Source of the DNA: a virus
Length of the DNA stretch: 39,430 bases
IMG/VR virus record: IMGVR_UViG_3300044731_000415
Location: 1 to 39,430 of that record
Direction: 5' to 3' (one strand)
Position 1 is the first letter of the stretch; every line of letters starts with the position of its first letter. A program made the position numbers and the translations under genes. A model generated the notes under the pieces. That model was given only the letters and a program-made list of their open reading frames with translations, ran no database searches and was not told the origin of the DNA. Positions 12,751 through 39,202 of the stretch are shown piece by piece.

Positions 12751-13671
12751 TCAGTTTGTGGGGTGGGTGTCAATGAGCTTTGCGCGTATTAACGCTAAAT
12801 CATTGTCGGTTGGCTTTGAGTCTACGCCACCATACTTAAATGTGTAGCCCACTAACCGCCCTTTTGATAAAGGCTCTCCAGACACCAAAGCTCGGCGCAA
12901 CGTGGGCATGGTCATGTCATAGTACTTTAAGACCACAGAAAGGCTTGGAAACAAAATACCGTCGGGCATTACAAATACTGTTTTGCTCATCTTCTGTTTT
13001 GCCTCATCAGTGTGTTTCCGACCAAGCCAATGTTTATGGCTTCTACCAGCTTCAATATTTGCCTTGATCTTTAGCAACCCTTGCTCTGAAACTTTGCGAC
13101 CCTCTGCTTTTGGCTTGCCGCGCTGTGCGTCACCAATTTTTTGTTTCGTTTCCTCAGAAAGTGTTTTGCCGTAACGATAATGATTTTTCCCTACGGTCGG
13201 GGTTCTGTTCTGTCTAATCTTGAGTTTTGTTTCTTCGCTGTGTGTTTTGCCAACTCTTGGGTGATTAAAGTAGTCGGCAGCATAAAACTCTTTCAGAGTT
13301 GCAGATATTTTTTCTTTTTGTTGCTCTGCCATTACACGGCCAAAGTTAGGCGTTGCTTCTGGCGGCGCGTTTCTCCACGGTGCGTCTGATGAATATCCAG
13401 AGTTATAGCAAGAAGGTTTTCCTACATGCTGAACAAGATAAATATCCTCTATTTGTTGAAGCGACATCGTTTCCGGGACTGTCTCTACAACAACAAATTC
13501 AAATTTATCTTCGCCGTATTTATTCCATGCGGCCTGCAAATGCTTGCAGTGGTGTCTGTTACCACGAAGTAATTTACGGTGCTGCCTAAAGCGCACCTTC
13601 TTGTTTGTTGTGCTGCCTACATAAAACTTGTTGTTGACTACGTTGATAATTTTGTAAATGACCTGTTCCAT
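12751..13671 (-). CDS. GIY-YIG homing endonuclease with NUMOD3 repeats
   Basis: 306 residues from ATG 13671, which has GGAGGG four bases upstream. The GIY-YIG nuclease domain is at the N-terminus (VIYKIINVVNNKFYVGSTTN, with YKI and YVG in place of GIY/YIG, then R at RFRQH and the catalytic E in EDIY). Three DNA-binding NUMOD3-type motifs follow (GKTHSEETKLKIRQNR, GKTLSEETKQKIGDAQRGK, GRKHTDEAKQKM), then a helix-turn-helix-like C-terminus near SLSVVLKYYDMTMPTLRRAL. It sits downstream of the capsid-gene terminator as a free-standing insertion. It is probably mobile and not needed for the virion. Confidence 0.9.
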   Translation of the reverse strand: MEQVIYKIINVVNNKFYVGSTTNKKVRFRQHRKLLRGNRHHCKHLQAAWNKYGEDKFEFVVVETVPETMSLQQIEDIYLVQHVGKPSCYNSGYSSDAPWRNAPPEATPNFGRVMAEQQKEKISATLKEFYAADYFNHPRVGKTHSEETKLKIRQNRTPTVGKNHYRYGKTLSEETKQKIGDAQRGKPKAEGRKVSEQGLLKIKANIEAGRSHKHWLGRKHTDEAKQKMSKTVFVMPDGILFPSLSVVLKYYDMTMPTLRRALVSGEPLSKGRLVGYTFKYGGVDSKPTDNDLALIRAKLIDTHPTN

Positions 13672-13732
13672 ATTCCCTCCGTTACAAAGCCATAACCGTA
13701 ATGTACCGCAAGGAACCAACAATGTCAACAGA

Positions 13733-28449: not shown

Positions 28450-29969
28450 ACCAACCTCCTGCCGAACTTACTCTTTGCATACTTGATGACCTGCTGTTTG
28501 ATCTTGTTCTGTGTAACCATCCTTGGCTCCACAAAGATCGCCTCGTGAAACTTCCACTTAGGCCAATCCCCCGTCAGGTTCTTGTACTGAGCCTTGGCAA
28601 ATCGCTCAGCCGCCGCAAGATCCCCGCGCTTCCTGTCTTTGCTGATCTGCACAATCTCCCACCAAACCAGCCGCTTATCCGACATCCAATCCGATGACTT
28701 GGTGCCGCCAAACTCCACCATCTGACCCTGCACAGCAAATACATTGCTCATTGCCCTGCGCTCTGACCCGCACGATGGACACACCCGACCGCGGAACATG
28801 TACCCGCACGCCGTGCATTTGATCTCTGCCTTCTCTTTCTCAGTAGGCTCCTTGCGTACCTTGGCATCCAGCTTTCCATCCTCTAATTCCTGTACGCCAT
28901 GGGCAAATACCTCTACCTGATCCTCCCAGAACCGGGTCAGATTGCCTGCGTGATCAAGCCACACAGCGTATTCTTTGCCGGGATGCGGGCGCATAACCCT
29001 GCCCATCTGCTGAATGTGACCCGATAATGATTTTCTATATGGCCTGGCACATACACCGATTTTAATATCTGTAACATCAAATCCTTTTGCCAATGCTTCA
29101 CAAGATATTAATCCGATAATATCGCTATCAGGTTTTCTGAACTCTTCGATTAATTCCCTGCGTCGTTCGTTATTACCATCTTTATAACTGATCTGCTGGA
29201 AGTTATAACCTCTCTGTGCAAACTCCCTGCACAATTCCTCACCGTGTGCAACGGTTGCGCTAAATACAATGGTTTTAACTGGGCCATTAAAGTGTTTATT
29301 GGTAGCTTCAACCCACTCGGACACAATGTCTCCGACGATCTCAACCCCTTGTTTTTCCATATCTTTTTCTGCCCACTCGCCATCGAACTTAACCTCGGCG
29401 CCACGCATATCCATTTCGGATTTCGCTACAAACATTTTAACGGGCACTAACCAACCGTCATTAATTAGTTTATCGGTCGTGGTGCTATTTACTACGTTAG
29501 TAAATATCTTTGATAATCCTTTTGTAAATGGCGTTGCAGTTAATCCAACAACAATTGCATCAGGATATTTTTCAATCGCATTAATTACTGAACGGTGTAA
29601 TACATGCGCCTCATCTACCACTATAAGCTTTGGAGCGTTATCTATCTTGCGTCTTGCTAATGTCTGTGCGGATATAACCTGCACATATTCATATGGACGC
29701 CAGCGCCAGTGATCCGCCTGTATAACGCCATGGGATACGCCATACCTATCCAGTGTTGCGCTGGTCTGGTCTACCAGTGACACCCGATCGCATATGAACC
29801 AAGCCACGTTCTGCTTGGCCTTTGCTTCGTTCAACAGATAGCTGGCACTTACAGTCTTGCCCGCTCCGGTGGGCGCCACCAGGATCTGTGACCGGTGCCC
29901 TTTACGGACACCATCACGTAGCTCATCCAGTGCTTTGATTTGGTAGTCACGCAGACTTTCGATCAGCAT
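28446..29969 (-). CDS. SF2 DNA/RNA helicase with zinc ribbon
   Basis: 507 residues. Motifs: N-terminal RDYQIKALDEL (Q-like), Walker A APTGAGKT at 32-39, DEAH at 119-122, TATPF near 144, FSATVAHGEEL, and motif VI QQMGRVMRP. A four-Cys ribbon (CTACGYMFRGRVCPSCG) follows, then a C-terminal extension. This is the DEAD/DEAH-box phage helicase type used in replication, repair or recombination. The start overlaps the 3' end of the parB-like gene, and the stop overlaps the HTH gene. The full motif set is present, so it should be active. Confidence 0.9.
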   Translation of the reverse strand: MLIESLRDYQIKALDELRDGVRKGHRSQILVAPTGAGKTVSASYLLNEAKAKQNVAWFICDRVSLVDQTSATLDRYGVSHGVIQADHWRWRPYEYVQVISAQTLARRKIDNAPKLIVVDEAHVLHRSVINAIEKYPDAIVVGLTATPFTKGLSKIFTNVVNSTTTDKLINDGWLVPVKMFVAKSEMDMRGAEVKFDGEWAEKDMEKQGVEIVGDIVSEWVEATNKHFNGPVKTIVFSATVAHGEELCREFAQRGYNFQQISYKDGNNERRRELIEEFRKPDSDIIGLISCEALAKGFDVTDIKIGVCARPYRKSLSGHIQQMGRVMRPHPGKEYAVWLDHAGNLTRFWEDQVEVFAHGVQELEDGKLDAKVRKEPTEKEKAEIKCTACGYMFRGRVCPSCGSERRAMSNVFAVQGQMVEFGGTKSSDWMSDKRLVWWEIVQISKDRKRGDLAAAERFAKAQYKNLTGDWPKWKFHEAIFVEPRMVTQNKIKQQVIKYAKSKFGRRLV

Positions 29970-30765
29970 GTTTCTTCCAATACAGAACTTGTTTCTTGAG
30001 TTCGGCGCACTCCCGCTGCCACTTGTCTCGGGCCTCGGTAAGGTTGTCGATCGTGGACTGCATCTGCTTCATGGTTTGGTAGTGCTCTGTATCCCTGAGC
30101 GCTGTAAGGATCGTGACTTCCTTGGCCAGCTCTTGGTAGTTATCAAGGATCTCTTGGTACTGCTCATTCAGCTCGTCATAGGCCACCTTCAAGGCGTCAT
30201 ACTTGTCCTGTGCCACGGCTGACTTCAGAACGGGCTTAACGGGCGCTGGAGGCACGTTCTCTGGCTCCTCCTTGTCTACGACCTTGATGGCCTCACGAAG
30301 GCTCATAGCCCCTTTCTTGACCTTCTCTATCACCTCCTTGTCGCCAGACTGCACCACCTTCTTGGCCCGCTCTACTGACTTCTCACCTACCCCGGCACGC
30401 TTAGCCATCTCTTTGGAAGTAATTCCGTCCATGGACGGAATTTGATACTTTCGTAGGGGGGTACCCACGCCTGCCCATGTGCTGCAACTGACTACGGCCA
30501 TGGCCTTTTGTGCTGGTGATAGATGCCTGCGGTGCAGGTTCAGGTCCATGACATAGGACACTGGGTCTTTCCCATCGAACTCATGGAAGGATGGATTGAT
30601 GTCCAGCTGTAAGCAGGCACGGAACCGGTGCCATCCGTCCAGGATCTTGTTCTCATACGTGGTGATGGGTTCACGCTGCCCATGGGCTTTGATGGATTCC
30701 AATAGGTCTTGGAAGTCCTCATCGGGCATGTCAGGGAATGCTGCTGATAACTGGTGTCTTTCCAT
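29947..30765 (-). CDS. ParB-like nuclease/DNA-binding protein with coiled-coil C-terminus
   Basis: 272 residues. ParB/Srx N-terminal features: EDFQDLLESIKAHGQREPIT, KILDGWHRFRACLQL (the LDGxHR signature) and LNLHRRHLSPAQKAMAVV. A HTH follows near residues 118-138 (EMAKRAGVGEKSVERAKKV) and a long charged coiled coil from about 190 to 265. Between the two domains residues 102-118 (TPLRKYQIPSMDGITSK) are encoded by the palindromic element. No ParA is seen nearby. It may act in partition, transcription control or DNA nicking. Its ATG lies just past the array. Confidence 0.85.
   Translation of the reverse strand: MERHQLSAAFPDMPDEDFQDLLESIKAHGQREPITTYENKILDGWHRFRACLQLDINPSFHEFDGKDPVSYVMDLNLHRRHLSPAQKAMAVVSCSTWAGVGTPLRKYQIPSMDGITSKEMAKRAGVGEKSVERAKKVVQSGDKEVIEKVKKGAMSLREAIKVVDKEEPENVPPAPVKPVLKSAVAQDKYDALKVAYDELNEQYQEILDNYQELAKEVTILTALRDTEHYQTMKQMQSTIDNLTEARDKWQRECAELKKQVLYWKKHADRKSA
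30415..30461 (+). repeat. Palindromic element, copy 3 (inside the parB-like gene)
   Basis: Core 30421-30442 is a perfect 22-bp palindrome identical to copy 1. It is followed by TGATACTTTCGTAGGGGGG. Orientation equals copy 2. It is read in frame on the minus strand and forms the linker between the ParB/Srx domain and the HTH. Confidence 0.85.
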
Positions 30766-30799
30766 ATCTCTCTCTTAGTTAATGACGCTCGGTGACTTT

Positions 30800-31862
30800 G
30801 GTGCTCACGATTTTTTTGACTCACTTTATTGTTTTGGTTCTCTCTAAAACTCTGGTTCGTTCATCCACTTTGGTTCTCTCCGAATGACTGACTCACTTCT
30901 CTATCCTGGTTCTCTTACCTGCTATGGTTCGTTCTAGCTCCCTGGATCTCTCGGCAGTTGCGACTCACTCTCTTACGGTGGATCTCTCACAAATAGTGGT
31001 TCGTTCGTGTACTTTGGCTCTCTCAGACTGGCTGACTCACTCTCATACCAAGGTTCTCTCGCAATCTCTGGTTCGTTCTGGACGATTGGTTCTCTCTCTT
31101 TTTCTGACTCGCTCGGCCGAATTGGTGCTCTTGGCCAACTTGGCTCACTCTCGATTTATGGTTCTCTTCCATTGCTTGGTTCGTTTACAACTTGTGGTTC
31201 TCTCCGTTAACTTGACTCACTCTGGGCGGATGGTGCTCTGGGCTCGAGTGGTTCACTTGACCGATTAGGTTCTCTCTTCGCTCTAGGTTCGTTCGGCTGA
31301 CTCGGTTCTATTTGCGTCGATGACTCACTTCCCGGTAATGGTTCTCTTGCTTGTTTAGGTTCGTTCCTGGTGGCAGGCTCTCTTACCCGACATGACTCAC
31401 TCTATCAACGGTAAAACTATCAGTGGTCTTGGTTCGTTCTGGTGCATTGGTTCTCTCTCGCATGTTGACTCGTTCGCATGAATTGGTTCTGTCGGTTACC
31501 TTGACTCGCTTCCTCAGCATGGTGCTCTTTATAACCCTGGCTCGTTCTGCGTGTATGGTTCTCTCGCTTTTAGTGACTCGTTCTGCCACATTGGTTCTCT
31601 CTGGACGGATGACTCGTTCGATCTCCTTGGTGCTCTCGATGCCAGTGACTCGTTCTAGTGATATGGACCTCTCCAGATCATTGACTCGTTCTCATGGTCT
31701 GGTTCTCTCTTGAAATTTGACTCGTTCACTTTCAATGGTGCTCTCGACTCGAATGACTCGTTCTCATATATTGGTTCTCTCGCAACTGATGACTCGTTCT
31801 ATGGTTTTGGTTCTATCTTGTTCGATGACTCACTCAATCCATTTGGTGCTCTTGGTGAGCGT
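30800..31862. repeat. TIGR-type array: 9-nt repeats alternating with 9-nt spacers
   Basis: About 59 units of 18 nt, each a 9-nt conserved core plus 9 variable bases, in strict register from 30800 to 31393 and, after one 37-nt irregular step at 31394-31430, from 31431 to 31862. Cores alternate between two types: type 1 GGTTCTCTC (variants GGTGCTCTY, GGATCTCTC, GGCTCTCTC) and type 2 GACTCACTC, GGTTCGTTC or GACTCGTTC, giving a 36-nt period with two spacers. The 9-nt spacers differ throughout. This matches TIGR arrays, which yield 36-nt guides with two 9-nt spacers. It lies directly downstream of the Tas-like gene on the minus strand. Frames translated from it (VLSxxLTRS- or ERTxxxERV-like) are artefacts of the repeat. 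Confidence 0.9.
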
Positions 31863-31864
31863 GG

Positions 31865-32659
31865 TTAAACAGGTGATGGTATGAAATGAGCATGGCCCAT
31901 GTGTGCAATCGGATAGGGCAGCGGCGGCTTCGTACCAAAGTGCGTCTCATACCAAGCTCCATGGAGGTGGCTCAGGAATAGCTTAACCGCATACCTTCTT
32001 GCCCTTGCATCGATCTGGCCTGGTGGAAGTACGCCATTGGATAGGTGCTTGTAAGCTTCCGTGGTCTTGCCTACCTTCTCCTTCAGTTGCTCAGCCAGTT
32101 CCTTGTTATCACCACGCTCATTGCGGGCGATCTCAAAGTTCTTGCGCTCCCTGTAAATGTGACCGTAGTAGCAATCATCACGGCCAGAGAACTTCATGAA
32201 GGATTGGCCAGCCTTCCAGCAAAGCGTCTTCAGTCCTGCATTCCATGGGCGCTTCTGTCCCTTCTCCCATTTGCTTGTGGGATCTAATCCAGCATAGCGC
32301 CAGATATGTCCAACGGTAGGAGCCTTCTCAATATCAATGTGCGCTAACAGCCCCGCGGAAATGACAGGGCCAATGCCTACGATCTGCCGCATCCATGCGC
32401 CCATGACATGCGACTCAGTGTAGGAATCAAGCGCCTTTTTGATCTGCTCTTCCAAGCCCTTGGATTGGGATGCTAGCCAGCCGATCACTGCATTGGGCTC
32501 CATGGATTCATCCAGCGCCCGGACTTGGTTGGTGGAACGCTTACGGTCTTCTTGGGCGATGTAGTAGTAATCGACCAGGAATCTTGCCTCATCATCAGAC
32601 AGCTTGGCGGCTGCGACTTTAAGGTCCTTGGTCAGCTTCATGATTGGTTCTAAGTTCAT
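31865..32659 (-). CDS. tas: Tas-like protein (Nop/IS110 C-terminal-type domain, no nuclease)
   Basis: 264 residues. N-terminal helices (DDEARFLVDYYYIAQEDRKR; ASQSKGLEEQIKKALDSYTE) lead to a helix-hairpin-helix core MRQIVGIGPVISAGLLAHID (90-109), IWRYAGLDPTSKWEKGQKRP (119-138) and a helical C-terminus with Arg/Tyr-rich YYGHIYRERKNFEIARNERG. This is the fold shared by the IS110/IS116 transposase C-terminal domain and the Nop-like domain of Tas proteins. No DEDD/RuvC or HNH residues are present. Its stop is two bases from the array, and its ATG overlaps the wHTH gene (ATGA). It is most likely a nuclease-less Tas (TasA-like) that binds array-derived guides. Confidence 0.85.
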   Translation of the reverse strand: MNLEPIMKLTKDLKVAAAKLSDDEARFLVDYYYIAQEDRKRSTNQVRALDESMEPNAVIGWLASQSKGLEEQIKKALDSYTESHVMGAWMRQIVGIGPVISAGLLAHIDIEKAPTVGHIWRYAGLDPTSKWEKGQKRPWNAGLKTLCWKAGQSFMKFSGRDDCYYGHIYRERKNFEIARNERGDNKELAEQLKEKVGKTTEAYKHLSNGVLPPGQIDARARRYAVKLFLSHLHGAWYETHFGTKPPLPYPIAHMGHAHFIPSPV

Positions 32660-32895: not shown

Positions 32896-33068
32896 TACTG
32901 CCCCCTTGCCAAATACCACGCCCATCGGCGCTTCTTGGCGATCATTTCTAAGTAACGCTTGATGTAGGTTTTGATTTCAACGCCTAACGACTTGGCGTAA
33001 AGCACGTCCGCCTGCGAGACGATGATCTTGCCTACCCTGTCTTCACCTCTCACTTTGCGAACTTTCAT
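32895..33068 (-). CDS. Small basic helical protein, unknown function
   Basis: 57 residues from ATG 33068 (AAGGGGG just upstream), not from the longer start at 33155 that would overlap the previous gene. Sequence: MKVRKVRGEDRVGKIIVSQA, then DVLYAKSLGVEIKTYIKRYL and EMIAKKRRWAWYLARGQ. Proteins with a SLGVxxxxYIKxxLxxIAKKRRWxW-like pattern occur in phages near replication genes, without known role. The start overlaps the preceding stop (ATGA). The Arg/Lys/Trp end may contact nucleic acid. Confidence 0.7.
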   Translation of the reverse strand: MKVRKVRGEDRVGKIIVSQADVLYAKSLGVEIKTYIKRYLEMIAKKRRWAWYLARGQ

Positions 33069-33319
33069 GCTTGCCCCCTTGCTCGTATGGCGGTGGTGCA
33101 CTGTCTTGCACCGCTTGCCATTCCTTGATCTTCTGGATATGCAAACTTGTCCCAAAGTTCTTCGGCTCGTGATTCAACTTCTTCACACGCCTTCACACAC
33201 GCCTCACGCTCGGCAGCAGCAACAAGGGCGGCGAAGCGTTCAAAAGCATCGGTATAGTTCCATAGGTCAGGATCAAGCCCTGCCTCCCGCGCCATGCGGA
33301 TTATTTCTTCTCGGTTCAT
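33065..33319 (-). CDS. Small paralogous protein (IIRMAREAG...REACxxxC...AIRARG family)
   Basis: 84 residues: MNREEIIRMAREAGLDPDLW, FERFAALVAAAEREACVKAC, ending CTTAIRARGQA. One of at least five related small genes in the window (33316, 33591, 38948 and 39199, plus the C-terminal half of 38487). The shared shape is an N-terminal helix, a FAALVxxxEREAC helix and a C-terminal AIRARG. Abundant in Burkholderiales phages, function unknown. ATGA overlaps on both sides. Confidence 0.75.
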   Translation of the reverse strand: MNREEIIRMAREAGLDPDLWNYTDAFERFAALVAAAEREACVKACEEVESRAEELWDKFAYPEDQGMASGARQCTTAIRARGQA

Positions 33320-33594
33320 GTGTTTCCCCTTGCGCGGATGGCGGCGGCAATCCGCTCACGTTCTTTGCGTAAGATCTCAAGCGTCTTGGTTTGCACCGGT
33401 TCGTCCGTCCCCTGCACGACTAATTCAGCACACGCTTCACGTTCAGAAACAACAAGTGCCTTAAGACCCCCTCGGATTTGTTGATGCGTTAGCGTCAACA
33501 AGTCGCGGTCGCCATATTGATTGCCGTGGCGATCTACCAATCTCATTGCCAGTGCGTAACGTTCAACCAAAGTCATGATGTCTTCGCGGTTCAT
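33316..33594 (-). CDS. Divergent member of the same small-protein family
   Basis: 92 residues from ATG 33594, which overlaps the preceding stop (ATGA). A longer start at 33675 would cross into the previous gene. Sequence: MNREDIMTLVERYALAMRLV, then LLTLTHQQIRGGLKALVVSE, REACAELVVQGTDEPVQTKT and RIAAAIRARGNT. The N-terminal NRED, the SEREACAEL helix and the AIRARG end are kept, but the middle differs from its paralogues. Unknown function. Confidence 0.7.
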   Translation of the reverse strand: MNREDIMTLVERYALAMRLVDRHGNQYGDRDLLTLTHQQIRGGLKALVVSEREACAELVVQGTDEPVQTKTLEILRKERERIAAAIRARGNT

Positions 33595-33797
33595 TTCTCC
33601 CCCCTTGCTCGGATGGCGGCGGCGATCAGCTCCCCGTCTATTGACGGTCCCTCTTGAAAACAAATGGAAGCACACGCCTCACGCTCGGCAGCAGCAACAA
33701 GGGCGGCAAACCGTGTTACAGAATTTAATGGCTTTTCGTCAGATCCGTAAGCCAATCCTGCCTCCCGCGCCATGCGGATTATTTGTTCGCGGTCCAT
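33591..33797 (-). CDS. Small paralogous protein, near-copy of the gene at 38948
   Basis: 68 residues: MDREQIIRMAREAGLAYGSD, EKPLNSVTRFAALVAAAERE, ACASICFQEGPSIDGELIAA. The first 40 codons are almost identical to those of the plus-strand gene at 38948 (GLAYGSDEKPLNSVTRFAAL in both), indicating a recent duplication or exchange between opposite-strand gene trains. The start overlaps the stop of the 40-residue gene (TGATG). Confidence 0.75.
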   Translation of the reverse strand: MDREQIIRMAREAGLAYGSDEKPLNSVTRFAALVAAAEREACASICFQEGPSIDGELIAAAIRARGEK

Positions 33798-33919
33798 CAG
33801 AACGGTGCCTCTTCAATAGGCTCCTCGGCCACGGGTTGCTTCTCAAGCACCTCTCCGTCTTCGCAGTAGTGGTACTTAAATGGCCATTTATCGCCAAGCT
33901 GTTTGATGATTTCGTCCAT
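33797..33919 (-). CDS. 40-residue acidic protein
   Basis: A short frame from ATG 33919 to TGA 33797 with AAGGAG eight bases upstream. Sequence: MDEIIKQLGDKWPFKYHYCE, then DGEVLEKQPVAEEPIEEAPF. It is acidic, and its TGA shares one base with the next ATG. An in-frame ATG farther upstream has no comparable signal. No family recognised. Confidence 0.65.
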   Translation of the reverse strand: MDEIIKQLGDKWPFKYHYCEDGEVLEKQPVAEEPIEEAPF

Positions 33920-33997
33920 GGTTATCTCCTTGTCGGTAGGAGTATTTAACCACAGTTTTATGCGTTTGTGCATACCGTTCGTCAGGTCGACGAGCGG

Positions 33998-34573
33998 TCA
34001 GAAGATGCGTAGCTTCACGTCCTTTAGCTGCACTTCTTGGGTCGGCTCGGCATCACGCCAGTCGGTCATGTCCCAATTCCCTTTCCCATGATTACAGGGT
34101 TGGCATAAAATTTGGCAGTTGTCCAAAGACAAAGCCAGATGAGGAAAGAGTTTGCGTGGCTTGATATGGTCAACATTGATACGCACGCCATCGGCCGCGG
34201 TAGCGCCACAGCACTGGCACCTGGCACCATATTTCTTCAGCGCCTCCATACGCACCCTGCGCCATTCATAGGTCTCAAGGAAGGCATCAGAAGCCGGGTT
34301 GATTTTCTTTGCTTTCCACAACGCAGAAAGTTCGTTGGGAGTGGCAGCCTCTTGCTGCTTCTTCACCATATTGGCAAGCGCTCTTAGCCGTGTCTCATTG
34401 AGCTTGCACCACTGCTTGGTGGTCATCTCAGGTGGCTTGTGCATCCCATCCTTGGCGGCCGCCAGTACGATCAGGTCATAAGGACTCTTGCCGCTCTTCT
34501 GAGCATATCCAATCCGGCTTTTCAAATACCGGGTCCATATCGCTCCAACAAATACAACACCCTTCCTTGCCAT
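33998..34573 (-). CDS. HNH endonuclease
   Basis: 191 residues. The C-terminal half carries the HNH domain with structural zinc cysteines: CQCCGATAADGVRINVDHIK (Cys pair, then the VDHI catalytic His) and LSLDNCQILCQPCNHGKGNW (Asn, second Cys pair, terminal His). The N-terminal half is helical (KPPEMTTKQWCKLNETRLRA; ANMVKKQQEAATPNELSALW). It may be a packaging-associated, homing or defence nuclease. It is the only HNH near the Tas-like gene, 1.3 kb away. It lies immediately downstream, in minus-strand direction, of the structured non-coding region. Confidence 0.85.
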   Translation of the reverse strand: MARKGVVFVGAIWTRYLKSRIGYAQKSGKSPYDLIVLAAAKDGMHKPPEMTTKQWCKLNETRLRALANMVKKQQEAATPNELSALWKAKKINPASDAFLETYEWRRVRMEALKKYGARCQCCGATAADGVRINVDHIKPRKLFPHLALSLDNCQILCQPCNHGKGNWDMTDWRDAEPTQEVQLKDVKLRIF

Positions 34574-34604
34574 GCTCTAACCTTTAGAACAGTTTAAAAA
34601 AAGA

Positions 34605-34625
34605 TCCGTGTTCCGTGTTCCGTGT
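34605..34625. repeat. Three tandem copies of TCCGTGT
   Basis: Three exact head-to-tail copies (34605-34611, 34612-34618, 34619-34625) in an AT-rich stretch between the HNH start and the structured region. They could be a protein-binding array or slippage. On the minus strand they lie 30-50 bases before the HNH start codon. Confidence 0.6.
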
Positions 34626-34702
34626 TTATATTTATAACTTCTTTCTTCTTTCTTACTGTATGCATTCGGTTCAGATCTCGGTTTGAATTCGGAAATACTC
34701 AC

Positions 34703-35203
34703 CTAAACCCCTGCGAGAGGGGTTTAGTGTGGCATTGATGCGTCCGGACGAGTCTTCGGAATCAACGGCTAGCCTCTACGCATGGGCTAACTATGGAAGT
34801 TACGGTGACGCGCACCCCTGTCTCTGGTCTTCCATCCCTCTTGCGAGGTCACTCATATCAGTCGGGCTTTTGACAGATCCCCGTGGCCCTCTCGCGCAGT
34901 TACGGCGGCGTTTCTAGCGGTCTGGCTGCGCAAAGTTATCGGTTTCGGCTGGGTTCTGAGTCCCACTTGGCTTGCAGCTAACTTCGGTCTGCAATCCGTG
35001 TATCAAAAACACAAAGGCCGCTTACTGCTGCTCCCGGTCGTTGTCCCTCGGTTAAGAGGGCGGAAGCATGAGTAAACGGCCTTCAGGTTTGTTGACAACG
35101 ACGACAACAAAATCATGATACCATAAATTTCACGGCTATGTCCATGGTCGTGTCTCCTGGTTGTTTAGGTCTTTCCCCGGCTCCCCTCGCCGGGGTTTTT
35201 TTT
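34703..35203 (+). ncRNA. Candidate large structured RNA ending in a terminator
   Basis: About 500 bases with no convincing protein gene but many perfect helices. Pairs (positions): 34703-34712/34718-34727 (10 bp, CTAAACCCCT), 34770-34774/34785-34789, 34793-34799/34829-34835 (7 bp), 34804-34807/34813-34816 nested inside it, 34837-34840/34845-34848, 34894-34899/34926-34931, 34972-34977/34989-34994, 34998-35001/35009-35012, 35014-35026/35071-35083 (13 bp, one mismatch) enclosing 35045-35049/35056-35060, and 35088-35094/35105-35111. The terminator at 35175-35203 sets the likely plus strand. No family was recognised. A 62-codon plus frame at 34729 starts with GTG, lacks a ribosome-binding site and runs through these stems. 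Confidence 0.45.
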
Positions 35204-35368
35204 GAGCCAGTTACTGAATGCCTGCGTATCAGCCAGTAGCTTGATGGACCTGATCTGCAACTCCAGTGCCACGCGCTGCGCTATCTCCTGGCGCACCTGA
35301 AGCTTCACTGACTGAGGTATTGATTCGATCATGTCGTTCACGATCGCCTTGCGTATACGTGGATCCAT
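35165..35368 (-). CDS. Small helical protein overlapping the nuclease gene
   Basis: 67 residues from ATG 35368 (GAGGATGACCC upstream): MDPRIRKAIVNDMIESIPQS, VKLQVRQEIAQRVALELQIR, SIKLLADTQAFSNWLKKNPG. Regular amphipathic helices suggest a real protein. It overlaps the 3' end of the nuclease gene by 140 bases in a different frame, and its last eight codons are made from the terminator hairpin of the other strand. Function unknown. Confidence 0.6.
   Translation of the reverse strand: MDPRIRKAIVNDMIESIPQSVKLQVRQEIAQRVALELQIRSIKLLADTQAFSNWLKKNPGEGSRGKT
35175..35203 (+). terminator. Rho-independent terminator
   Basis: CCCCGGC (35175-35181) pairs with GCCGGGG (35189-35195) around a 7-base loop, followed by eight T on the plus strand. 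It terminates plus-strand transcription leaving the structured region. It overlaps the last codons of the opposing gene 35165-35368. Confidence 0.85.
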
Positions 35369-35753
35369 GGGTCATCCTCATCGTTGCTATTGCTACCTCA
35401 AACGATACCTGCATCCAATCATTTTCATCAAATGGCCCTTGGCCACCCCACACCACCAGAAACACACTGATCGGTAAATACACATCCCAGTACCTCGCAT
35501 GGTTCCTTCGATGAAATAGGATCGGCATCAGCCCATCCCGCCATGCACTATTCAATGCCTGCCGCTGCCATGCACGCCAGTCAGGGTTCTCGGCTCGCTT
35601 CACCTCCACCGCCCAACCCCATACTTTCATATCATAGCCACCCGCCGCGGACTGCTCATAATTCAATTTGACTTGGAAATCCAGCGCCTGCGATATGAGC
35701 TTGGCCACTTCCAACTCCCCACGCCGGCCCTTCTGTCTGCTATTGATTGCCAT
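35229..35753 (-). CDS. PD-(D/E)XK nuclease, Holliday-junction-resolvase-like
   Basis: 174 residues from ATG 35753, which follows AGGAGG (ten bases away). An in-frame ATG at 35783 has no such signal. Motifs: INSRQKGRRGELEVAKLI (helix with catalytic Glu), then GGYDMKVWGWAVEVKRAENP (Asp and ExK) and WQRQALNSAWRDGLMPILFH. This is the resolvase/VRR-type nuclease core used by phages for recombination or debranching. The last 47 residues overlap the next gene and look unlike the family (polar, Gly/Ala/Arg), so they may be a by-product of the overlap. Confidence 0.8.
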   Translation of the reverse strand: MAINSRQKGRRGELEVAKLISQALDFQVKLNYEQSAAGGYDMKVWGWAVEVKRAENPDWRAWQRQALNSAWRDGLMPILFHRRNHARYWDVYLPISVFLVVWGGQGPFDENDWMQVSFEVAIATMRMTHGSTYTQGDRERHDRINTSVSEASGAPGDSAARGTGVADQVHQATG

Positions 35754-35782
35754 TGGTCGGATACCTCCTATATGTATTGCCA

Positions 35783-35797
35783 TATGTTGTGAACATA
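35783..35797. promoter_or_regulatory. Palindromic operator candidate in a divergent gap
   Basis: TATGTT-GTG-AACATA forms a 15-bp palindrome with 6-bp arms, centred between the divergent starts at 35753 (minus) and 35826 (plus). CATATGTATT-like sequence lies beside it. Its placement suits a repressor acting on either gene. Confidence 0.45.
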
Positions 35798-35825
35798 GAG
35801 TACCATTCTTTCACTGGAGAACACA

Positions 35826-36413
35826 ATGAATGCTGAACAACTCATACCTGAACAACGCGTTTTAATGGCTGCTATTAACCTGGCCATCTTTGACTCATGT
35901 AAGCAACCCATCATAGCCGGTGACTTGCTTACCAAATCCAAGAAGCACAAGGATTACAAGCTTCATATTGATGCACGCACATCCTTCCAGTTCATCTTTG
36001 GCGAAGGACTGGAGAACTTCTGCAACTGGCTGCCGCTTGATCCGGGCTGGTTACGCAAGAAGCTTCTTGATTACATGTTTGATGACGGCCCCAAGAAACC
36101 AACGGCCAAGGATGTTGTGGTTCGTGTGGACGATCAGCAGCGTCGAATGTTCCGTATCAATTACAAACTTTACAAACTGGAGAGAGAAGCATGTTGGACA
36201 TCACTGGAAGAAGAAAGCCAAGAGCTACCCATCAAGCAGGTCATATCGCGCTTAGACCAGAAAGGCCGCGTATTGGAAGTCGATACGTCAGGCCGGCGCC
36301 TAAGTGGCAAACAGAAATTCCACCTGATCAACTCTGGATCCAAAACGTCTACCTCAACCAACCCGTCTCCGAATGGACCTGGCACGGCCGATGGTCAGGC
36401 GTCCTCCGAGTGA
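35826..36413 (+). CDS. Conserved phage protein, unknown function
   Basis: 195 residues; CTGGAGAACACA precedes the ATG. The N-terminal 130 residues look folded (IPEQRVLMAAINLAIFDSCK; DARTSFQFIFGEGLENFCNW; LPLDPGWLRKKLLDYMFDDG). The rest is polar and ends in a Ser/Asn/Pro/Gly-rich tail (INSGSKTSTSTNPSPNGPGT). The last 223 bases are shared with another plus-strand frame (36191-36490). It resembles uncharacterised proteins near early or replication genes. No domain is named. Confidence 0.7.
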   Translation: MNAEQLIPEQRVLMAAINLAIFDSCKQPIIAGDLLTKSKKHKDYKLHIDARTSFQFIFGEGLENFCNWLPLDPGWLRKKLLDYMFDDGPKKPTAKDVVVRVDDQQRRMFRINYKLYKLEREACWTSLEEESQELPIKQVISRLDQKGRVLEVDTSGRRLSGKQKFHLINSGSKTSTSTNPSPNGPGTADGQASSE

Positions 36414-36490
36414 TCCTGATCTTGGCCCTTGTGTTTATTTTCTACCATGCCGGCCGCTGGGTACATGCCGGTATGCCCACGGGATATTGA
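36191..36490 (+). CDS. Overlapping membrane protein with C-terminal transmembrane helix
   Basis: 99 residues from ATG 36191 with GAGAGAAGC just upstream. The first 65 residues are basic and Pro/Arg-rich (GRRKPRATHQAGHIALRPER; PEWxTEIPPDQLWIQNVYLN-like). A hydrophobic helix follows (GVLRVILILALVFIFYHAGR) and a short tail. It begins inside 35826-36413 in another frame and extends 77 bases past it. It may be a tail-anchored membrane protein. The nested layout recalls spanin pairs, but no lipobox is present. Confidence 0.6.
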   Translation: MLDITGRRKPRATHQAGHIALRPERPRIGSRYVRPAPKWQTEIPPDQLWIQNVYLNQPVSEWTWHGRWSGVLRVILILALVFIFYHAGRWVHAGMPTGY

Positions 36491-36491
36491 G

Positions 36492-36716
36492 ATGCTGGCA
36501 TCAGAACTTATTCAGAAGCAGATCGACGCGCTCAAGGAAGTGATAGCCAAGCTAGAGCGCCTCAAGGAAGACGTGGAGCCCATGAAGCTTGATGAGGCAG
36601 AAGAGCTATGGGATTCGATTGACATGGATACCTTGAAGAATGCTCACAACTTTGGTGACTTCATAGAGATAGTGAGGAAGGTATCTGCTTACTACAACAT
36701 AGGAGCCAGGCGATGA
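36492..36716 (+). CDS. Small coiled-coil protein
   Basis: 74 residues from ATG 36492: MLASELIQKQIDALKEVIAK, then LERLKEDVEPMKLDEAEELW and DMDTLKNAHNFGDFIEIVRK. A heptad pattern runs through residues 5-35. A longer start at 36429 would cross the membrane-protein gene. The stop overlaps the next ATG (ATGA). No family recognised. Confidence 0.65.
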   Translation: MLASELIQKQIDALKEVIAKLERLKEDVEPMKLDEAEELWDSIDMDTLKNAHNFGDFIEIVRKVSAYYNIGARR

Positions 36717-37030
36717 GAAAGCACACACCGGGACCATGGAAGTTAGAGCCATACGATTCTTGCTTGGCAGGTGAAGACTTTCAATGGGGCGGCATATGGG
36801 CTGGGCCGGTAATGCTTGATGGCATTAATTACGGGCAGCCAGCATACGCAACTATCAAACCTGAAACGTTAGAACGAATGGAAGCTGATGCCCGCCTGAT
36901 CGCCGCAGCGCCTGATTTGTTAGATGCGCTTTTGATGGTGCTGGACGATCCAAATGCCCTGGATGGTAGACCACGAACTTATGAGTATGTGCACGCCGCC
37001 ATCGCTAAAGCAACAGGAGAGAAAGCATGA
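36713..37030 (+). CDS. THTPGPW-family small phage protein
   Basis: 105 residues: MRKHTPGPWKLEPYDSCLAG, then ERMEADARLIAAAPDLLDAL and EYVHAAIAKATGEKA. The HTPGPWK start and ARLIAAAPDLLDAL helix mark a very common phage family of unknown function, and the length is typical. The 3' end carries the 36-bp direct repeat that recurs at 37822-37857 and includes the ribosome-binding site of the next gene. Confidence 0.8.
   Translation: MRKHTPGPWKLEPYDSCLAGEDFQWGGIWAGPVMLDGINYGQPAYATIKPETLERMEADARLIAAAPDLLDALLMVLDDPNALDGRPRTYEYVHAAIAKATGEKA
36995..37030 (+). repeat. 36-bp exact direct repeat, copy 1 (copy 2 at 37822-37857)
   Basis: The 36 bases from GCCGCCATCGC to GAAAGCATGA are identical at both places. 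They cover the last ten codons of one gene, the AGGAG ribosome-binding site and the next start codon. This makes a ready crossover point between adjacent gene units. Confidence 0.9.
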
Positions 37031-37374
37031 GCAGACAAGCTATGCAAATGGCGCTGGAGGCGCTGGAGTTATATCAAAGCAAGAGCAGCGTTCAAATGTT
37101 TGACGATGCCGTTAAAGCCCTGCGCCAAGCGCAGCAGACAGAGCAAGAGCCGGTGGCGTGGATGTTTGTCAATGAAGACGGTGAATGTGAGCAGATTGAG
37201 TATGGCCCTGTCTTTGATGACCCTGGGGTAACACCGCTTTACACCGCACCACCAAAGCGTGAATGGGTTGGGCTGCATGGAAGTGAAGTACCAGAACCCT
37301 ACAAATATGACGTTATGTTTAATGAAGGCTGGTGGTGGGCAGAGGAGAAATTGAAGGAGAAGAACCATGGCTGA
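37027..37374 (+). CDS. EPVAW/KREWVGL modular protein
   Basis: 115 residues: a helical N-terminus (MSRQAMQMALEALELYQSKS, then DAVKALRQAQQTEQEPVAWM), a central beta part ending TPLYTAPPKREWVGLHGSEV and a C-terminal helix EEKLKEKNHG. The same order is seen in 38060-38494. The family is widespread in proteobacterial phages and unassigned. The ATG follows AGGAGAGAAAGC and overlaps the previous stop (ATGA). Confidence 0.75.
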   Translation: MSRQAMQMALEALELYQSKSSVQMFDDAVKALRQAQQTEQEPVAWMFVNEDGECEQIEYGPVFDDPGVTPLYTAPPKREWVGLHGSEVPEPYKYDVMFNEGWWWAEEKLKEKNHG

Positions 37375-37621
37375 AAACAAAACAGCAAAGACACCAACAG
37401 ATAGCGGGGTAGGTTTTATTGACGGCGTGTGGCATGGGCCTACGGCGTGGCAGTGCCAATGCGGCAAACCCTATACGGTTACTTGTATTTCAAGCAAACC
37501 AGCTAAGCGTGAATGGGTTGGGATGACGGCTTATGAAATACAAGAGATCCATTCAGGAAATCAGCACTGGGGTGATTTTGCTTGCGCCATCGAAGCCAAG
37601 CTAAAGGAGAAGAACACATGA
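37367..37621 (+). CDS. KREWVGM small protein with cysteine pair
   Basis: 84 residues: MAENKTAKTPTDSGVGFIDG, then VWHGPTAWQCQCGKPYTVTC and SSKPAKREWVGMTAYEIQEI. The QCQCGKP...TC cysteines could form a small metal site. Only the C-terminal KREWVG module of the family is present. It ends IEAKLKEKNT and overlaps both neighbours. Function unknown. Confidence 0.7.
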   Translation: MAENKTAKTPTDSGVGFIDGVWHGPTAWQCQCGKPYTVTCISSKPAKREWVGMTAYEIQEIHSGNQHWGDFACAIEAKLKEKNT

Positions 37622-37857
37622 ACCCACAACCCAAAGCCTTAGTGCTGGCTGATGCGCTAGAAGAACTTGACGTGCAATTCAGCCACACGGGTCTATGCGG
37701 AGAAGCCGCCGACGAACTGCGCCGATTGCATGAGGTGAATCAGGATCTGCTGGCTTCAGTCGTTGAGCTCTTGAACAGCATTCAACCGGACCGAGACTGG
37801 CACAAGGCAAAGCGTGCCCGAGCCGCCATCGCTAAAGCAACAGGAGAGAAAGCATGA
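37618..37857 (+). CDS. Small helical phage protein
   Basis: 79 residues from ATG 37618: MNPQPKALVLADALEELDVQ, then FSHTGLCGEAADELRRLHEV and VELLNSIQPDRDWHKAKRAR. The ALVLADALE...AADELRRLHEVNQ pattern is common in phage small proteins. The C-terminal AAIAKATGEKA is identical to the end of 36713-37030, encoded by the 36-bp repeat. ATGA overlaps on both sides. Confidence 0.75.
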   Translation: MNPQPKALVLADALEELDVQFSHTGLCGEAADELRRLHEVNQDLLASVVELLNSIQPDRDWHKAKRARAAIAKATGEKA

Positions 37858-38063
37858 ACATAGACACAGGCAGGCCAGCGTTTCCGACAACGCAATACAT
37901 AAACGGCATCAGCCCAAGTGGGCACGATGTCGGCATGACCCTGCGCGATTACTTTGCAGCCAAGGCGATGCAAGCACTGGCGCAGAAATACAGCCATGAA
38001 GGGGATATTTCACGCAACGCATACAAAATTGCAGACGCCATGCTGAAAGCGAGGGAAGCATGA
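37854..38063 (+). CDS. GMTLRDYFAAKAMQA family small phage protein
   Basis: 69 residues: MNIDTGRPAFPTTQYINGIS, then PSGHDVGMTLRDYFAAKAMQ and ISRNAYKIADAMLKAREA. The GRPAFP start, GMTLRDYFAAKAMQ helix and AYxIADAMLKAREA end identify a widespread phage family of unknown role. Complete length. ATGA overlaps at each end. Confidence 0.85.
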   Translation: MNIDTGRPAFPTTQYINGISPSGHDVGMTLRDYFAAKAMQALAQKYSHEGDISRNAYKIADAMLKAREA

Positions 38064-38494
38064 GCAGAGAAGCTATTGAAGAAGCGATAGAGGTGCTGGA
38101 GGATGCAAGCGCAGAGATGCTGATGGAAACAGGCGATAAAAATTACTACATCGAAGCCATTGCCGTTTTACGCCAAGCACTTGTCGATGCCGACGACACA
38201 TCACAAGAACGTGTTGATGAAATCGTAAAAGATGAACATGAGCCGGTGGCGTGGGCCAATTCATTCGACCTGCAAAACTTTGACATGAAAGTGCGGACAG
38301 GTCCTGACCTGCACCACACAGTGCCCCTCTACACCGCACCAACAAAACGTGAATGGGTTGGGCTGACGGATAAAGAGATACAAGATTTAGGTTATCTGTC
38401 CGAAAAGTTTGATGCAAGTAATTCAGAGTGGTTTGATCGATGGGGATTTGCCCGAGCCATTGAACAATCCTTGAGGGAAAAGAACCATGGATAA
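38060..38494 (+). CDS. EPVAW/KREWVGL modular protein
   Basis: 144 residues: an acidic helical N-terminus (REAIEEAIEVLEDASAEMLM, then YYIEAIAVLRQALVDADDTS), EPVAWANSFDLQNFDMKVRT, VPLYTAPTKREWVGLTDKEI and a C-terminal helix. The first 120 bases are nearly the same as those of the next gene, showing tandem duplication. Function unknown. The stop lies seven bases into the next gene. Confidence 0.75.
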   Translation: MSREAIEEAIEVLEDASAEMLMETGDKNYYIEAIAVLRQALVDADDTSQERVDEIVKDEHEPVAWANSFDLQNFDMKVRTGPDLHHTVPLYTAPTKREWVGLTDKEIQDLGYLSEKFDASNSEWFDRWGFARAIEQSLREKNHG

Positions 38495-38966
38495 AGAAGC
38501 TATTGAAGAAGCGATAGAGGTGCTGGAGGATGCAGGCGCAGAGATGTTAGGGGAAACAGGCGATGAAAATTACTACGGTGAAGCCATTGCCGCACTGCGA
38601 CAAGCATTGGAGACAGAGCAAGAGCCGGTGGCTCACGTTGACCACCGCATTCACGGCTGGCCGGATTGCCTCGTGATAAAAGCCGACCCGCCGGATAGAG
38701 AAGACATCATCCGCATGGCTAGAGAAGCAGGGCTTGCTGATTCCAACGGGGTTGTTCATGCTTTTTATCAGCTTGAATACTTTGCATATCTTGTTGCCGA
38801 GCATGAGCGCGAAGCTATATGGAACTTGCTGTTTGAGTACGCAGGTAGAGATGATTTATCTGATTCAGATCAATCGCTGCTTAAACATTTATTAGATCTC
38901 ATCGCAGCAAGGTGGCAAGAATGGAGTAACAAAGAAGGGGAAGAATCATGGATAGAGAAGAAATAA
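38487..38966 (+). CDS. Fusion of an EPVAW-type N-terminus with an IIRMAREAG-type C-terminus
   Basis: 159 residues. Residues 1-60 (EAIEEAIEVLEDAGAEMLGE through QALETEQEPVAHVDHRIHGW) copy the start of 38060-38494. From residue 70 the sequence switches to REDIIRMAREAGLADSNGVV and FAYLVAEHEREAIWNLLFEY, the core of the other small family. The KREWVG part is missing. This is a clear domain shuffle. Function unknown. Confidence 0.75.
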   Translation: MDKEAIEEAIEVLEDAGAEMLGETGDENYYGEAIAALRQALETEQEPVAHVDHRIHGWPDCLVIKADPPDREDIIRMAREAGLADSNGVVHAFYQLEYFAYLVAEHEREAIWNLLFEYAGRDDLSDSDQSLLKHLLDLIAARWQEWSNKEGEESWIEKK

Positions 38967-39202
38967 TCCGCATGGCGCGGGGGGCTGGATTGGCTTACGG
39001 ATCTGACGAAAAGCCGTTAAATTCTGTAACACGCTTCGCTGCCCTTGTTGCCGAGCATGAAAGAGAACAGTGTGCAAGGTTGTGCGACCAGATGTTTCAT
39101 GACTGGTGCAATCAAGAATTTGAAGACGAGGACGAGGCTTACAAAAACAAACCGGATGCCGAGGATTGCAAGAAAGCCATCCGCGCAAGGGGAAACGCAT
39201 GA
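38948..39202 (+). CDS. Small paralogous protein (IIRMAR...ERExCA...AIRARG family)
   Basis: 84 residues: MDREEIIRMARGAGLAYGSD, EKPLNSVTRFAALVAEHERE, QCARLCDQMFHDWCNQEFED, ending KKAIRARGNA. The first 40 codons match the minus-strand gene at 33591-33797 almost base for base. It overlaps the previous gene by 19 bases and the next by ATGA. Function unknown. Confidence 0.75.
   Translation: MDREEIIRMARGAGLAYGSDEKPLNSVTRFAALVAEHEREQCARLCDQMFHDWCNQEFEDEDEAYKNKPDAEDCKKAIRARGNA

Follow-up and report, generated by a model that had tools for sequence, protein, structure and literature searches.

A large modular pseudoknotted RNA encoded by phages, with HNH endonuclease genes as frequent neighbours

How does the locus characterized here relate to the structured RNAs and mobile nuclease genes that have already been described? 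Nearest to it is the orphan Rfam family Betaproteobacteria-1 (RF02932), which reportedly originates from a 2017 paper. The Rfam model of this family covers no more than 120 nt and leaves out the 5' modules described below; it coincides with the type C 3' domain of several homologues related to our RNA through module 1 and/or module 2. In the window, by which we mean the whole 39,430-nt stretch of uncultivated phage DNA analysed here (IMG/VR record IMGVR_UViG_3300044731_000415), the Betaproteobacteria-1 covariance model (threshold 49.4 bits) finds no match, the 3' domain of the window RNA being of type A. A wider covariance-model search of the window against Rfam, which an earlier note on this DNA had suggested, assigned no family to the RNA at either gathering or permissive thresholds, consistent with the unassigned status that the note had given it; the only signals were weak and terminator-like, such as anti-hemB with 32 bits where 49.5 are required.

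Among large RNAs, GOLLD, ROOL and OLE form homo-oligomers; ROOL measures 659 nt, many GOLLD RNAs exceed 800 nt, and GOLLD is divided into one conserved half and one variable half (PMC12286853). Like GOLLD and ROOL, our RNA is large, pseudoknotted and phage-encoded and has no known obligatory protein, and with GOLLD it also shares the division into conserved and variable halves. It differs from both in its size of about 416 nt, in having no match to an Rfam covariance model and in the absence of tRNA genes from the window, as scanned with ARAGORN. Its size, folding and autonomy liken it to other large phage RNAs, but it belongs to none of the tested families. By analogy, it might assemble on its own into an oligomeric cage or scaffold that stores or protects something during infection, as its phage origin, its size, its many pseudoknots, the lack of an obligatory protein partner and the precedent of the three homo-oligomers would allow; we regard this as very unlikely, given that it matches neither the GOLLD nor the ROOL family, is shorter than either, and has a loop pairing in module 1 that fits equally within one molecule.

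A structured RNA directly 5' of an HNH-domain ORF is likewise seen in HEARO and in the omega RNAs of IsrB and IscB, but the phage protein has 191 aa with HNH only and no RuvC, and the RNA has no Rfam match and no guide that could be found in a comparison with one empty site. The longest match between RNA and site in that comparison was 8 nt, which is the chance level (shuffled mean 8.2), and an RNA guide was rejected. The succession of promoter, structured RNA, putative terminator and nuclease gene recalls type III toxin-antitoxin systems (ToxIN) and AbiF-RCd22, from which our locus differs in that the RNA often occurs without a protein and neither ToxN nor Abi_2 is present (PMC5086642, PMC12373285); the tandem pseudoknot repeats of type III antitoxins were looked for and not found. 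Free-standing phage homing endonucleases share with our locus an HNH gene in an intergenic cassette and the swapping of alleles at one locus, but not the dedicated promoter and the elaborate RNA, which here persists without the enzyme. A group I intron with an HNH gene was rejected as well: the cassette lies between genes, is antisense in phages of the L213 type, and has no Rfam match.

Strand and architecture of the RNA

For positions 34703-35203, which belong to a gap between two minus-strand genes (Table 1), the earlier note had proposed a novel large structured RNA ending at its own plus-strand terminator. Its premise that there is no credible gene was borne out, the sole ORF being one of 62 aa on the plus strand (34729-34917), and the predicted folding energy surpasses that of 100/100 dinucleotide shuffles on both strands (z -3.87 plus, -3.92 minus). 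The helices it listed are present in the sequence, and the three that it named are exact, each corresponding to an element of the RNA: the 10-bp hairpin at 34703-34727 to the 3' closing hairpin, the 7-bp helix with a nested hairpin at 34793-34835 to H9 enclosing H10, and the 13-bp helix at 35014-35083 to the outer stem of P2 in the 5' module. Strong support for the proposal of a novel large structured RNA comes from covariation, a conserved promoter and homologues in dozens of phages, and Rfam contains no family that matches it.

Orientation and limits had to be revised, however. The RNA lies on the minus strand: its helix cells in the minus reading contain 50 G-U against 1 A-C, the module-1 model R2 scores 107.7 bits on the minus against 26.9 bits on the plus strand, and the conserved promoter is on the minus strand. 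The proposed limits give way to about 35108-34693, both ends being deduced from the sequence and unmapped. The terminator at 35175-35203 does exist on the plus strand, but it sits upstream of the RNA promoter, on the opposite strand, and is not the RNA's own. Its strength, together with the stable folding of the plus strand, could point to a plus-strand RNA ending there, which we consider hardly credible in view of the three strand signals and of the fact that this terminator occurs at the window locus only, and not beside homologues elsewhere such as L006. The promoter is placed with notable constancy: a -10 box (at least 4/6 matches, with A2 and T6) is found 6-8 nt upstream of GTTGTCG in 37 of 38 distinct upstream contexts, compared to a mean of 4.2 and a maximum of 11 in shuffles.

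Table 1. Positions of the RNA, its elements and neighbouring features in the window
Feature	Position	Strand	Basis
Nuclease-like gene	35229-35783	-	PDDEXK_15 just under cut-off; PHROG RusA-like
Intrinsic terminator, 7 GC pairs then T8; outside the RNA	35175..35203	+	Sequence
-35 box TGGACA	35139..35144	-	TGGACA-N18-TATCAT, 10/12, TG preceding the -10
-10 box TATCAT, 6 nt upstream of RNA start	35115..35120	-	Sigma70-like promoter
Whole noncoding RNA, about 416 nt (predicted ends)	34693..35108	-	5' end, conserved GTTGTCG; 3' end placed past last hairpin
Module 1: 5' hairpin P1, long hairpin P2, 8-bp pseudoknot	35010..35108	-	Model R2 107.7 bits, E 5e-26 (R2 built from 13 sequences, window included); covariation
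Module-1 pseudoknot, 5' strand GTCGTTGT, in P1 loop	35095..35102	-	Pairs with 35037-35044
P2: 13-bp outer stem, inner 8-bp stem, apical hairpin	35014..35083	-	Covariation
Module-1 pseudoknot, 3' strand ACAACGAC, 3' side of P2	35037..35044	-	Homologues and covariation
Module 2: hairpin H1 (loop ACCGAAGTTAG) and GTGGGACTCAGAACCCAGCC hairpin	34947..34997	-	H1 pairing; motif in other contigs
Module 3, type A core, H4-H11, pseudoknots H5/H6, H6/H9, H7/H9	34766..34905	-	Model R1 169.8 bits (R1 built from 6 near relatives, window one of them); pair counts
H9 (7 bp) enclosing hairpin H10	34793..34835	-	Two-sided changes in 7/7 and 4/4 pairs
3' closing hairpin CACACTAAACCCC/GGGGTTTAGGTG, then TATTT	34700..34731	-	Sequence; putative termination
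HNH endonuclease gene, 191 aa, optional payload	33998..34573	-	Pfam HNH 2.3e-9; conserved HNH and zinc-ligand residues intact (alignment)
264-aa protein beside array	31865-32659	-	Transposase_20 match
272-aa protein beside array	29947-30765	-	ParB-like by eye

The RNA is composed of three modules. The first, at the 5' end, is a pseudoknot hairpin that in most cases ends with a T-run; the second is a joint of two hairpins, and the third a 3' domain that can be swapped. The 8-bp pseudoknot of module 1 is 100% paired, with two-sided changes at 3/8 pairs, and is formed by 47/47 distinct homologues in about a dozen differing sequences, the best 7-bp pairing within a 50-nt stretch having been sought for this count. 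For module 1 as a whole, an unfitted alignment of 13 sequences has 99.6% of its cells paired and 42 two-sided cells against 13.9 in shuffles (0/500 shuffles). In 43/47 homologues, P2 is followed by five or more consecutive T; in the window phage this run is degenerate (TTTGTGTTTTT), and termination at this point is putative. Module 2 consists of two hairpins with conserved loops, of which H1 is 100% paired in 9 strand combinations, with covariation at 5/6 pairs.

The elements of the type A core in module 3 follow each other in the order H5a H6a H5b H7a H8 H9a H7b H6b H10 H9b H11, so that pseudoknots link H6 to both H5 and H9 and, in addition, H7 to H9. The covariance model built from the 6 near relatives detects divergent ones at E 1e-16 to 6e-8. 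Covariation among homologues, the check that the earlier note had put forward, came out in favour of the structure: in 22 distinct homologues, counted on a model-fitted alignment as MAFFT had misaligned hairpin H8, 98.6% of the core cells are paired and 28/36 pairs show two-sided changes, pseudoknots included, while not one of 500 shuffles attains the real value in any of the five measures used, and slid-partner controls are 27-53% paired. H6 is 100% paired with covariation at 4/5 pairs, and H7 is 94% paired; H4 is invariant and hence uninformative for covariation. The support for H4, H6 and H7 is not circular, because these helices are absent from the model behind the alignment. In the separate count that yielded the values for H1, the percentages of H3, H11 and H6 are biased upward, since the best complement was taken for H3 and H11 and H6 had to fit a constrained pattern. 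The 3' closing hairpin also recurs in homologues, with altered sequence. With this covariation support, the RNA adds an undescribed class to the large pseudoknotted RNAs of phages; a literature search, with many journals outside its coverage, found no description of it.

Homologues, module exchange and association with HNH genes

At the locus of the window, 12/12 close relatives, whose neighbouring gene is 80% identical or more, carry a promoter and an RNA of the same class between the same genes; typing by eye distinguishes about five 3' domains among them and 5' domains of two kinds. Beyond this locus, the 5' pattern is found in 58 viral contigs and the joint pattern of module 2 in 53 viral contigs and one Comamonas MAG, and near-identical copies of module 1 occur at unrelated sites. 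Searched directly at the DNA level, phage and plasmid records gave no match to the RNA; among 399 Comamonas-family genomes, searched with a sensitivity poor enough to miss a known positive genome, type A matched in 1 and module 1 in 0. The type C 3' domain, which is Betaproteobacteria-1, accompanies module 1 and/or module 2 in L013, L014, L017, L161, L172, L173, L197 and L129. These sequence patterns show that 3' modules are exchanged between phages, and make the orphan Rfam family one of the interchangeable domains of the RNA class.

Individual loci show further peculiarities. L154 (7392-7587) carries promoter and module 1 in two tandem copies. Rfam matches were obtained to a type II hammerhead ribozyme in the related locus L106 (1104-1163), to Proteo-phage-1 RNA in the related locus L185 (6680-6761), and to int-alpA RNA in L102 (7448-7515), about 340 nt past module 1.

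Occupied and empty alleles, as expected of an HNH homing cassette, are found in close relatives at a locus other than that of the window, the terminase-portal junction. There, about 800 bp comprising a promoter, a type A RNA and a small opposite-strand ORF of 90 aa fill the junction in L213, L214, L216, L217, L218, L225 and L226, and the junction is empty in five close relatives with similar terminases (L215, L219, L220, L221, L252). The insert of L213 replaces about 10 nt, with no target duplication seen. At the window's own site, an empty allele was not found.

The link to HNH genes that the earlier note had hinted at proved a good guess, though the RNA is often found without HNH. Starting from the HNH protein alone, a module-1-shaped element was found upstream, on the same strand, of 29/55 non-redundant HNH genes, as against 1/165 shuffles and 0/51 downstream regions. 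In Vibrio phages 2.095.A and 1.178.O, a looser detector picks up a module-1-like element in the unannotated stretch ahead of the HNH gene, and inspection by eye showed another one 5' of the HNH gene in Xanthomonas phage Kintu. For this phage HNH family, cultured Vibrio phages included, the unannotated stretch preceding the gene seems to be a structured RNA. In Sulfitobacter phage phiGT1 (L294), a 642-nt unannotated gap (1190-1831) lies directly 5' of the HNH gene and has no module-1-like match; it may hold a divergent relative of the RNA. As for the HNH protein of the window, its AlphaFold model is of moderate quality (pLDDT 76), and a structure search returned a phage HNH endonuclease as the top match, weakly (E 5e-3), the remainder of the protein being uninformative.

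In the other direction, most loci found from the RNA pattern lack an HNH gene of the same family. The payload after the RNA varies between HNH, PAPS-reductase-like and other proteins, or is missing; in L180, the long downstream gene is the terminase in antisense, and the RNA is kept without a same-strand gene after it in this locus as well as in L100, L123 and L178. PAPS-reductase-like ORFs (ISFSGGRTSAYML, named by eye) follow module 1 in L101, L107, L113 and L128 as alternative payloads. The N-terminal domains of the HNH proteins do not track the RNA type one-to-one. An obligatory partnership of HNH and RNA was rejected on these two grounds, the many RNA-first loci without HNH and the N-terminal domains.

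A cis-acting role would be one way to account for the position of the RNA: it could form the 5' UTR of an mRNA for HNH or another payload, in which module 1 would act as an attenuator and the remainder would control translation or stability. The same-strand elements before 29/55 HNH genes are compatible with such a leader, as are L007 and L019, where HNH directly follows the 5' element, and L119 and L131, where module 1 stands before other ORFs; moreover, T4-type homing-endonuclease mRNAs bear regulatory hairpins (PMC2988022). We nevertheless think it rather unlikely, since the RNA is also conserved at loci that lack a downstream gene on its strand, stays while the payload changes, and with about 400 nt and several pseudoknots in its core exceeds the needs of a leader.

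Alternatively, the RNA could be a partner that binds the HNH protein, as an inhibitor in a layout like that of type III toxin-antitoxin systems, or as a cofactor in a layout like that of HEARO and IscB. The order of promoter, pseudoknot RNA, T-run and nuclease ORF does recur in unrelated phages and upstream of HNH in the two Vibrio phages, but homology is confined to HNH, without ToxN or RuvC, and tandem antitoxin repeats are missing. Together with the frequent RNAs without HNH, the N-terminal domains that do not follow the RNA type, the chance-level 8-nt match to the empty site of one cassette, and the near-identical modules 1 at unrelated sites, this renders such a partnership improbable. 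A bolder version, to which we likewise assign a low probability, would have pseudoknot RNA and small HNH protein form one RNP. This would be a minimal HNH nuclease, widespread in phages, that either depends on the RNA or is restrained by it, and the copies without HNH would be its relics or counter-elements.

A mobile RNA gene as the preferred reading

The explanation we prefer, and which we give about an even chance, is a mobile, self-contained gene for a minus-strand noncoding RNA that acts in trans, with the HNH endonuclease as an optional homing partner. RNA polymerase would start at about 35108 and, in most relatives, would often stop at the terminator-like end of module 1; otherwise it would continue as far as about 34693 and, where an HNH gene exists, on into that gene. 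The product would act as an RNA in trans, with the host or competing phages as probable targets, as suggested by its retention where no gene follows on its strand. The HNH protein would be a homing enzyme that helps the cassette to spread and swap. The sequence-based support for this scenario consists in the fixed distance between promoter and start, the pseudoknot fold of module 1, the joint module, the multiply pseudoknotted core of the 3' module, the exchange of modules, the empty sites, and the frequent but non-obligatory presence of HNH. Against it, the HNH link of 29/55 versus 1/165 could reflect a functional partnership rather than hitchhiking, and the internal T-run would be odd if the product were the full-length RNA. 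As promoter, RNA, HNH gene and empty alleles are all defined, the function is open to experimental testing.

Other features of the window

Several further features were observed in the window. Positions 30799-31852 are occupied by an array of some 28 units, each 36 nt long, in which two 10-nt repeats, TGACTCGTTC and TGGTTCTCTC, both variable, alternate with 8-nt spacers between them. Beside it lie the genes of the 264-aa protein, whose Transposase_20 match is of the IS110 type, and of the 272-aa ParB-like protein, an arrangement that by analogy would correspond to that of TIGR-Tas systems, which comprise TasA and a ParB-like partner (PMC12045711). A GIY-YIG endonuclease gene with NUMOD3 motifs, located on the minus strand among structural genes (12751-13728), is probably a second homing endonuclease. 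Finally, the region 33065-39202 contains many small related ORFs on both strands, starting like MDREEIIRMAREAGL or MNREEIIRMAREAGL, which appear to be paralogues of one family that has expanded around the RNA.
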